Positions 12,893 through 63,437 of a DNA stretch of 64,000 bases are shown here, piece after piece; within the stretch, counting starts at the first letter, position 1, and each line of letters opens with the position of its first letter. Source of the DNA: Anaerofustis stercorihominis (GTDB taxonomy: Bacteria > Bacillota > Clostridia > Eubacteriales > Anaerofustaceae); the NCBI GenBank assembly GCA_015058295.1, contig SVCP01000002.1:1-64000 (forward strand). Direction: 5' to 3'. Both the position numbers and the translations under genes were made by a program. Under the pieces are notes generated by a model, which saw nothing but the letters and a program-made list of their open reading frames with translations, did no database searches and was not told the origin of the DNA.

Positions 12893-13158
12893 TAAAAAAA
12901 CTGACACAAAATGCAATCAACACATTCCGTGTCAGGGACGAGCATTGCCCGCGGTGCCACCCTGATTGACTAAAAGTCCGTAGCCCTCTTTATGACATTA
13001 ACGCTGCCCACGTCAGCGGGTACTCTGTTCCCCGATGATGCTCCGAGTGTCTTTCATTCATATCATCCTCAGACGGGCTTGCAGTCACGACCCGTCCTCC
13101 CTGTCAGGATTCCGTAAATTACTTCCTCTTCATAGCCTTTATTATGTGTATTTGTCAG
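12893..13158 (-). ncRNA. T-box riboswitch leader of hisS-aspS
   Basis: Minus strand AGGGTGGCACCGCGGGC T-box/antiterminator motif, stem I region AAGAGGAAGTAA..., terminator CTGACACGGAATGTG...TTTTGTGTCAGTTTTTTT before hisS. Confidence 0.92.
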
Positions 13159-45856: not shown

Positions 45857-46414
45857 TTATTTTATGATGTTAAGTATGATTTTCAGTGAATCAATACTGA
45901 AATTTTCATTCAGGCGGAGATCTATGCAGTACTCTGTGAAATTGATCAGATCTGTCACCGCATTCGGATAAAGGCTACCGAATTTACCGAGTATCTCCTC
46001 TTCGCCTGCAAGAATTGCAAGTCCGTCATCACGAAGCTCTGAAAGTACCATCACCCATCTGAACGAGTCCGAAAAGATTATGATCATGTCGGAAGAAGCG
46101 AGTTTCGTATATTCCTCATAATCAAACGGGTGGGGTATCTCCCGTATTGAAAAGAATGTATTCCTGCCTGCCGGTTTAGGCTCCTCAAGAGCAGAATTGT
46201 ATCCGTCGGAAAGAATATATACTCTTTCGTCAGGTGATATTATACCGGTCAGTGCCGCAAACTGTTCACGAAGCAGGAGCGTGTTGTCTGTGGGATAAAT
46301 AAGCTGTTTTTTAAGCCCCTGTGCAAAGATGACATCTTCCATATTATACATTTTATCCGTTCCGAAAAGCTTTCCCAGCTGTTTTATCAGAAAGCTGTAC
46401 ATACTGTTATCCAT
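45857..46414 (-). CDS. Hypothetical protein
   Basis: 185-aa ORF, upstream SD-like ggagg; no family recognised. Confidence 0.6.
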   Translation of the reverse strand: MDNSMYSFLIKQLGKLFGTDKMYNMEDVIFAQGLKKQLIYPTDNTLLLREQFAALTGIISPDERVYILSDGYNSALEEPKPAGRNTFFSIREIPHPFDYEEYTKLASSDMIIIFSDSFRWVMVLSELRDDGLAILAGEEEILGKFGSLYPNAVTDLINFTEYCIDLRLNENFSIDSLKIILNIIK

Positions 46415-46501
46415 AAATCCTCCATAAGTGATCTCAATACAGATTATAACATTACGGATAAGGCAAAGGGAATCCGCAAATAAAAAAAATTAAATTTAGG
46501 G

Positions 46502-46530
46502 TTGACAGAATATTTCACCGGTGCTATAAT
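46502..46530 (+). promoter_or_regulatory. Sigma-A promoter of attenuator/ABC transporter operon
   Basis: TTGACA, 17-bp spacer, TATAAT. Confidence 0.9.
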
Positions 46531-46588
46531 AACCGCAATCGGAAGCATTTTCCGAATATTCAGAGAATTCATGAAAGGAGCAGTACAA

Positions 46589-46663
46589 ATGAAACGCAGA
46601 TTTTTCTATTACTATTATTATTATTTTAGCCCTGCGGTGGAATGTTGTGCTGCAAATATCTGA
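46589..46663 (+). CDS. Leader peptide MKRRFFYYYYYYFSPAVECCAANI
   Basis: SD AAAGGAG 8 nt upstream; run of aromatic codons; located between promoter and terminator. Confidence 0.85.
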   Translation: MKRRFFYYYYYYFSPAVECCAANI

Positions 46664-46692
46664 TCATCGATTCTGTCAGTTCTTTGTAAAAT

Positions 46693-46746
46693 AACATCCA
46701 TCGTCTCGTTTGCGTATTGAACGGTACGGCGGATGTTTTTTTATTA
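46693..46746 (+). terminator. Attenuator terminator hairpin
   Basis: AACATCC.TCGT.TCGTT...AACGG.ACGG.GGATGTT followed by TTTTTATT; competing GGAATGTT at 46639-46646. Confidence 0.85.
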
Positions 46747-46770
46747 TAAAATATCGGAGGAATAATATTT

Positions 46771-47772
46771 ATGAAAATGAAAAAAACTCTCGGCATTATC
46801 ATGTCAGTCCTCATGGTAATGTGCTTATTCACAGGATGCGGCTCAGATGATTCTGAAACTATCAAGATTGGCATTATGCAGTTCGGCGAATTCGACGCTT
46901 TGCAGAATGCACACAAAGGCTTCGTAGACGGCCTTGCAGAAGCAGGATATAAAGATGGCGAAAACATCACTATCAACTACCTCTCAGCAGCAGCTGACAC
47001 AGCAAACTGCCCGACAATCGCCGATACACTTATCAACGACGGAAGCGACCTTATCCTCGCTATCGCAACACCCAGCGTATCTGCACTCAAAGAAAAGACA
47101 ACAACAATTCCTGTTCTCTTCACAGCAGTTACAGACCCGGTAGCAAGCGGAATCATCGCTGACAACAAAGTTCCCGGCGGAAATATTTCAGGTTCTTCAG
47201 ACCTTAACCCGGTAAAAGAACAGATCGACCTTATCAAACAGATCATCCCCGATGCAAAGACAGTAGCTGTTATGTACTGCTCAAGTGAATCAAACTCAGC
47301 AGCACAGTACGAACTTGCAAAGGCTGAAATCACAGCTCTCGGTATGACATGCGTACAGAAAACGATCGCTGACGTATCAGAAATCAAATCTGCAGTAGAA
47401 TCCCTCGCAGGAAAAGTTGATGCTGTATACATTCCTACAGACAACACTCTTGCAGACGCAATGACAACAGTTGCCGCAGCTGCCAACGAATCAAAACTCC
47501 CTGTAATCACAGGTGAACCGGGCATGGTTAAAAACGGCGGACTTGCAACATTCGGTATTGATTACTACTCACTCGGCAAACAGACAGCACAGATGGCAGT
47601 TGAAATCCTCACAGCAGAAGATCCTCTCGCTGCAGTTGCAAATATGCCGGTAGTATACCAGACAGATGCTGAAGACTGCGAAACAGCTGTAAATACAGAC
47701 ACAGCGGCAGCTATCGGTATCACAATTCCGCAGGAAGTTCTCGATATCGCTGTTACATACCCTGCAGAATAA
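46771..47772 (+). CDS. ABC transporter substrate-binding lipoprotein (PF04392/TrpX-like)
   Basis: Lipobox LFTGCG; IKIGIMQFGEFDALQNAHKGFVDGL; TAVTDPVASG. Confidence 0.9.
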   Translation: MKMKKTLGIIMSVLMVMCLFTGCGSDDSETIKIGIMQFGEFDALQNAHKGFVDGLAEAGYKDGENITINYLSAAADTANCPTIADTLINDGSDLILAIATPSVSALKEKTTTIPVLFTAVTDPVASGIIADNKVPGGNISGSSDLNPVKEQIDLIKQIIPDAKTVAVMYCSSESNSAAQYELAKAEITALGMTCVQKTIADVSEIKSAVESLAGKVDAVYIPTDNTLADAMTTVAAAANESKLPVITGEPGMVKNGGLATFGIDYYSLGKQTAQMAVEILTAEDPLAAVANMPVVYQTDAEDCETAVNTDTAAAIGITIPQEVLDIAVTYPAE

Positions 47773-47921
47773 TAAAGAAACCTTATAAAAAAATAAACAA
47801 ATACCTCAGAAGTCAGAGTGCCGCAAACGGCACTCTGATTTGCGGACAGAGATATCCGTACTTGAAATTCAACTGTTTTTAAGATAAAATACAACAAAAT
47901 GACATTCGGAGATAAAGCACT

Positions 47922-63221: not shown

Positions 63222-63391
63222 TCGCTCGGATAGAGGCGCGGAATTCATCAGTACCTGAAAGGTAACAGGCTATCGCCTTCAGTGAAAGGGACTTCCGCCG
63301 AAGGGTGCGAACTTGCCTAAGTTCGCATTGCTGGGTCGTCAGGGAATACCTGCCGGACTGTCACATTGTAAACTTTGTGAAGCGCTATCGA
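63222..63391 (+). ncRNA. Lysine riboswitch (L box)
   Basis: GATAGAGGCGCGGA...CAGTA...GGGACTTCCGCCGAAG...TTGCTGGG...CTGTCAC...GTGAAGCGCTATC. Confidence 0.93.
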
Positions 63392-63437
63392 AATTCGGTG
63401 TTGGCATAATTTTATTTTTGCTTGCTTCGTATTTATC

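Follow-up and report, generated by a model that had tools for sequence, protein, structure and literature searches.

A putative tyrosine-codon leader-peptide attenuator upstream of a PF04392-type ABC importer operon in Anaerofustis stercorihominis

Introduction

How does a bacterium of the Clostridia adjust the transcription of an amino acid importer to the supply of its substrate? Ribosome stalling in leader genes is the classic solution for tryptophan, histidine, and phenylalanine. The question is raised here by an ABC importer operon in a window of 64,000 nucleotides (contig SVCP01000002.1 of A. stercorihominis, positions 1 to 64,000), where a short aromatic open reading frame (ORF) and a terminator are inserted between the promoter and the gene of the substrate-binding protein. 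The leader is very probably a ribosome-mediated transcription attenuator of the trp/his/phe type, which would sense charged tRNA-Tyr and control a tyrosine importer.

Results and Discussion

Anatomy of the leader region

The elements of the leader region and of the operon are listed in Table 1. A sequence-only reading of the window had named the promoter, the 24-codon ORF with a good Shine-Dalgarno sequence, and the terminator followed by a U-run; all of these are present, and the positions and translation given for the ORF are exact. The ORF starts with an ATG at 46589-46591 and ends with a stop codon at 46661-46663. With its Shine-Dalgarno sequence, conserved in homologues, it is a putative translatable leader as found in trp/his/phe-type attenuators. 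The intrinsic terminator expected between such a leader and the first gene is formed by the pairing of AACATCC (46693-46699) with GGATGTT (46731-46737), complemented by inner stems. The folding z-score is -3.55 for the terminator and -2.69 for the whole leader. The control codons also appear to be cognate to the operon, the six Tyr codons preceding a binding protein most closely related to a tyrosine binder. A run of five Tyr codons is found at only one place in the 1.83-Mb genome, both strands being searched.

Table 1. Features of the leader region and of the importer operon (window coordinates)
Feature	Position	Strand	Basis or remark
Sigma-70-type promoter, TTGACA-17-TATAAT	46502-46530	+	12/12 consensus matches; TG precedes the -10 box
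Shine-Dalgarno sequence of the leader ORF, AAGGAG	46575-46580	+	Sequence
Region 1, GCAGTACAA, candidate protector by pairing with 46645-46653	46580-46588	+	Full-length minimum free energy (MFE) fold
Leader peptide ORF, MKRRFFYYYYYYFSPAVECCAANI, 24 codons	46589-46663	+	Position and aromatic run conserved in homologous loci
Control codons, six consecutive Tyr (codons 7-12)	46607-46624	+	Only TAYx5 run in the genome
Region 2, GCGGTGGAATGTTG, 5' strand of the antiterminator	46634-46647	+	Hairpin energy; co-variation with region 3 in L002
Antiterminator hairpin	46634-46704	+	About -25 kcal/mol; 0/300 shuffles as low
Intrinsic terminator hairpin (regions 3 and 4), then T7 at 46736-46742	46693-46737	+	Folding; terminators in homologous loci too
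PF04392 lipoprotein substrate-binding protein, probably tyrosine-binding	46771-47772	+	Glu249/Tyr265 at the CD0873 specificity positions
ABC permease, PF02653	47922-48839	+	Profile match
ABC ATPase, PF00005	48852-49646	+	Profile match

On the other side, the leader adjoins a divergent ORF of 185 amino acids (45857-46414, minus strand), which has no Pfam or NCBIfam match. Within the operon, an inverted repeat (GAGTGCCGCAAACGGCACTC, 47815-47842) lies between the binding-protein and permease genes and is followed by a promoter-like site at 47862. Through these two elements, the binding protein may be made in excess of the permease.

Ribosome position and choice of the fold

As alternative partner of AACATCC, the sequence-only reading had proposed GGAATGTT (46639-46646), within the leader ORF. 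The two are indeed complementary, with one bulged A, but the actual pairing is longer: the whole of region 2 pairs with 46691-46704 in the antiterminator hairpin. The energy of this hairpin is well below that of shuffled sequences (mean -15.1 kcal/mol, sd 2.7). For the window, the duplex of regions 2 and 3 taken alone is unremarkable, with 123 of 1000 shuffles having an energy as low, the unusual part being the hairpin as a whole. An antiterminator exclusive with the terminator is thus present, and co-variation in the sister species L002 concerns the same hairpin.

The RNA downstream of the ribosome was folded while the ribosome was moved codon by codon, assuming that its footprint extends 12 nt beyond the A-site and that the RNA behind it is blocked. 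In this model, the antiterminator is predicted to be whole at every A-site position through Y12, preventing the terminator even in the full-length RNA, and the terminator is predicted to be whole from S14 onward. The modelled equilibrium probability of the terminator is 0.966 without ribosome, 0.004 (about 0.01 or less) with the ribosome in the middle of the Tyr codons, and 0.966 at the stop codon; it is in the folding model, specifically, that the position of the ribosome picks the fold. The claim that a ribosome stalled on the Tyr codons leaves region 2 free agrees with these values.

The same calculation for homologous loci gives, for no ribosome, mid-Tyr, and stop, respectively, predicted probabilities of 0.83, 0.002, and 0.99 (L007), 0.80, 0.12, and 0.99 (L009), and 0.97, 0.31, and 0.98 (L053). 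When the intervening RNA was shuffled, an equally low mid-Tyr value was reached in 3, 4, 10, and 1 of 500 shuffles for the window, L007, L009, and L053. L008 is modelled to switch between the Tyr and stop positions, but its ribosome-free leader favours antitermination. In L002, L052, and L006, the terminator would still be favoured at equilibrium despite a stalled ribosome, and the antiterminator is predicted to form only before region 4 is made; hence, a kinetic argument is needed for these three. No clean switch was obtained in the folding model for L031 and L251.

It had also been proposed that a ribosome at the stop codon covers GGAATGTT. The modelled outcome, termination, stands, but the geometry is different. 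Region 2 precedes the stop codon by 14-27 nt; a ribosome at the stop would sit just 3' of GGAATGTT rather than on it and reach only the 3' edge of region 2. It would occupy the stretch 46646-46675 of the antiterminator hairpin, including some of the 5' arm, and would stand between region 2 and region 3. The classical attenuators are more closely matched by L006, L007, L008, and L009, where the counterpart of region 2 overlaps the stop codon or lies near it. The pairing of region 1 in the window is retained in L002 by one-sided changes (GCAGTATAA:TTGTACTGC) and partly in L052 and L053 (AGTACA:TGTACT). It may act as a protector when the leader is untranslated.

Conservation and co-variation of the leader

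Six genomes in three genera of the window's family (the window and orthologues with 83 to 44% identity) all carry the leader, i.e., a short ORF with a Shine-Dalgarno sequence, a run of Tyr and Phe codons, and a terminator, all before the binding-protein gene. The order of aromatic leader, terminator, and PF04392 gene is the same in the sister species L002, as well as in L006, L007, L008, L009, L052, L053, and L031, the last one belonging to another family of the order. Moreover, when 80 further upstream regions were sampled across the class, it was found in the genomes L226 and L251, which belong to the same genus of a more distant family. Aromatic leaders hence precede homologous genes in ten genomes besides that of the window. 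Loss of the codon run in homologous leaders had been named beforehand as a refutation; instead, the run is conserved in these ten genomes, and the suggested search upstream of related PF04392 operons yielded leaders rich in Phe and Tyr codons, with terminators.

The leaders of L052 (MRNLNMNFGYYYCLSQVDRCTTLG) and L053 (MTNSRKYYYYYCYAQVDRCCTSLD) have 24 codons each, equal to those of the window and L002. The leader of L031 is MKPSEQMHSLFHSCSFYFYYFYRRTDAL, and those of L226 and L251 are MRKFTNIYYYYFAYYI and MLGFINGRYYYYFGYYI, both with terminators. Together, the 11 leaders contain 59 Tyr codons, 34 Phe codons, and one Trp codon, Tyr being present in 11 of 11. At eight loci, the window included, a region 2 at the end of the leader is able to pair with the 5' part of the terminator. 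The window and L002 differ in a concerted manner by one base in each of regions 2, 3, and 4 (U-A-U to C-G-C), and a further pair differs on both of its sides (T5-A67 to C5-G67); these co-changes come from a group with only four alignable sequences.

The leader is not universal even among the near relatives of the window. Three genomes of a further genus in the same family have neither leader nor T-box before the gene, and no such leader was found upstream of the close orthologues L054, L055, and L056.

Two arrangements deviate from the common scheme. In L226 and L251, several GGxTTGTArC-like elements and a tandem pair of terminators come after the short Tyr leader, which resembles an extended cascade (2:3, 3:4, 4:5) of the same polarity. 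L031 (1112-1462) carries the FYFYYFY leader and a region, GAAGAACC, able to pair with GGTTCTT, with no clear path to the terminator.

Several candidates were discarded. In the order-wide DNA-pattern search, recurrent matches of TACTACTATTACTAT in two families proved to be DnaA-trio-like repeats between dnaA and dnaN; these conserved origin repeats, which mimic runs of Tyr codons, were seen in L140, L141, L145, L152-L154, L156, L163, and L168. The presumed leader MGLILLLFYFWDLWHMV of L003 and L012 was rejected, as it is part of an upstream coding region. Phe/Tyr-run ORFs in L034, L047, L051, L183, and L244 overlap T-boxes, and the match in L230 is a terminator read as codons. A T-box flagged in L055 by regular expression was not confirmed by Rfam.

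Binding protein and probable ligand

The binding protein scores 251.1 bits against PF04392, ABC_sub_bind (gathering score 25.9). With 305.4 bits, it stays below the cut-off of 390 of the NCBIfam TrpX model (NF041285, tryptophan substrate-binding protein equivalog) and is therefore not called TrpX. The closest solved chain is CD0873 of Clostridioides difficile (6hni, tyrosine-bound), followed by the Phe-bound VC_1101 and the Trp-bound SP1069. Two residues are named as determinants of specificity in CD0873: Glu263 binds the hydroxyl group of tyrosine, and Tyr279 keeps tryptophan out (PMC6816091). The window protein and all its close orthologues share both residues (Glu249 and Tyr265 in the window). 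This signature is also shared by some paralogues under Trp T-boxes; hence, it supports tyrosine as ligand and is not diagnostic (necessary at best).

Independent support for the ligand comes from the T-boxes of relatives, of which the specifiers were read from Rfam alignments at ten loci and by regular expression for the remainder. In another family of the order, the orthologues of a large genus have the specifier UAC. Further orthologues have UUC, among them those of two other genomes of L031's genus, which carry a Phe (UUC) T-box instead of the leader. Distant paralogues, including that of this genome itself (L020), have the specifier UGG. The ligand is thus probably tyrosine, judging from the relation to CD0873 and the orthologue T-boxes.

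The same attenuator could respond to phenylalanine, or to both amino acids, with a Phe or broad aromatic importer downstream. The Phe codons spread across the leaders and the UUC specifiers in L031's genus point in this direction, as does a precedent: the Phe-Tyr-Phe leader AroR responds to Phe, not Tyr (PMC11802643). Against this, Tyr outnumbers Phe six to three in the window, the leader of L053 has six Tyr codons and no Phe codon, a Glu is present at the CD0873 position that binds the tyrosine hydroxyl, and UAC T-boxes precede orthologues in another family. A phenylalanine signal is therefore considered unlikely. The proposal that the transporter carries tyrosine and/or phenylalanine agrees with the predicted ligand, with tyrosine the better supported of the two, as every leader contains Tyr and one is devoid of Phe.

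Binding-protein genes are tandemly duplicated within one importer operon in L053 (772-3160), L003, L004, and L005. In Anaerofustis-type genomes, the second binding-protein copy has Ala replacing Glu.

Peptide arrest, chance, and T-box explanations

Alternatively, a small molecule or an antibiotic could trigger arrest of the ribosome by the nascent peptide itself, in a TnaC- or Erm-like manner. Poly-aromatic peptides could exit slowly, and Firmicutes do have stalling leader peptides (erm leaders). However, the peptides, ranging from 16 to 54 residues, are not conserved between lineages outside the aromatic run, whereas the codon run and the RNA pairing are, as expected of codon-level sensing. 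This makes peptide arrest very unlikely. Even less credit is due to a chance ORF in AT-rich DNA before an ordinary terminator: short ORFs with Shine-Dalgarno-like sequences are common, and TAT/TAC repeats arise elsewhere for other reasons, such as the DnaA-trio-like repeats at oriC of relatives, but the co-variation, the switch statistics, and the uniqueness of the run in the genome speak against it, and the homologous leaders in ten other genomes have refuted it in practice. Equally improbable is an unrecognised T-box or metabolite riboswitch, since, even though orthologues and paralogues are under T-box control, no Rfam family matches 46450-46800 at E-values up to 1, and neither a Stem I with a specifier nor a T-box sequence is present at the leader.

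The genome uses T-boxes as well. One (Rfam, 107.8 bits) is located at 12931-13142 on the minus strand of the window, upstream of hisS-aspS, its specifier being probably GAC (Asp). A lysine riboswitch (Rfam, 98 bits) is found at 63223-63395 on the plus strand.

Proposed mechanism of the tyrosine attenuator

Leader conservation, co-variation, and the agreeing ligand prediction support the trp/phe-type circuit of the sequence-only reading. Transcription would start near 46537, and a ribosome would begin the 24-codon leader. If Tyr-tRNA is scarce, the ribosome is predicted to stall at codons 7-12, leaving region 2 and the following RNA free. Region 2 could then pair with region 3 as soon as the RNA polymerase makes it, so that the terminator is blocked and the importer transcribed. 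If Tyr-tRNA is plentiful, the ribosome would run through region 2 to the stop codon, where it would act mainly by occupying the RNA that separates regions 2 and 3; with these kept apart, the terminator would form. After ribosome release, the pairing of region 1 could hold region 2, and in an untranslated leader, region 1 would pair with part of region 2, leading to termination again. We infer that stalling, termination, and readthrough take place in this way in the cell, in response to tyrosine starvation, and that the importer binds tyrosine.

Relation to known systems

The E. coli leaders trpL, hisL, pheL, and pheST share with the window a leader ORF, a run of control codons, a terminator, an exclusive antiterminator, and, at the window, a predicted switch by ribosome position. 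The window differs by its Tyr (and Phe) control codons, by the control of an importer, by its occurrence in Clostridia, and by the position of region 2, five codons ahead of the stop codon and within the leader ORF.

In Firmicutes, His leader peptides have been described for hisZ/hisS of Bacilli (PMC2965389) and in the Bacillus cereus group, Peptostreptococcaceae, and Erysipelotrichales (PMC9413887). These are regular leader-peptide attenuators placed where relatives use T-boxes, like the window, but with histidine codons, his genes, and other lineages. The sequence-only reading had expected a ribosome-stalling Tyr attenuator to be unusual in Firmicutes; leader peptides as such have precedents there. 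As to the tyrosine type, a text search of openly licensed papers, which is weak evidence of novelty, returned no Tyr leader peptide or Tyr-codon attenuator beyond AroR, and such a leader appears to be undescribed, also for a PF04392 importer, in the literature searched. AroR of Corynebacterium glutamicum likewise has Phe and Tyr codons and enhances transcription upon ribosome stalling; unlike the window, it comprises Phe-Tyr-Phe only, controls DAHP synthase in response to Phe, and belongs to Actinobacteria (PMC11802643).

T-boxes control importers of the same family, for example trpXYZ of Streptococcus suis (PMC9382623), and Tyr T-boxes are known (PMC2494555). They sense tRNA charging through a terminator and an antiterminator as well, but the RNA reads the tRNA directly, without leader peptide or ribosome. 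The best reading is that, at a tyrosine importer, the leader attenuator fills the place of a T-box.

In a quick tree of 81 binding proteins, from which L226 and L251 are absent, the distribution of leaders takes no fewer than three changes, which well-supported branches enforce, and L031 is placed beside the T-box clade. These changes could be gains or losses. Repeated origin of the leader, with exchange for T-boxes, is the most natural reading, and such exchange has already been reported for His genes (PMC2965389, PMC9413887). On balance, we favour the view that Tyr-codon leader attenuators form an undescribed class in Clostridia, with several independent origins on the same family of aromatic amino acid importers and exchanging with Tyr and Phe T-boxes.

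Biological significance

The literature searched yielded no ribosome-mediated attenuator with a demonstrated response to tyrosine; AroR has a Tyr codon and ignores Tyr. As T-box and leader occur in different species of one genus of the order, the swap of a tRNA-reading for a ribosome-reading RNA is testable. If the class reading is true, both strategies for sensing tRNA would be comparable on orthologous operons. Furthermore, the leaders provide a ligand prediction for many importers annotated merely as ABC_sub_bind or TrpX-like, which is relevant to how gut Clostridia metabolise tyrosine and p-cresol.
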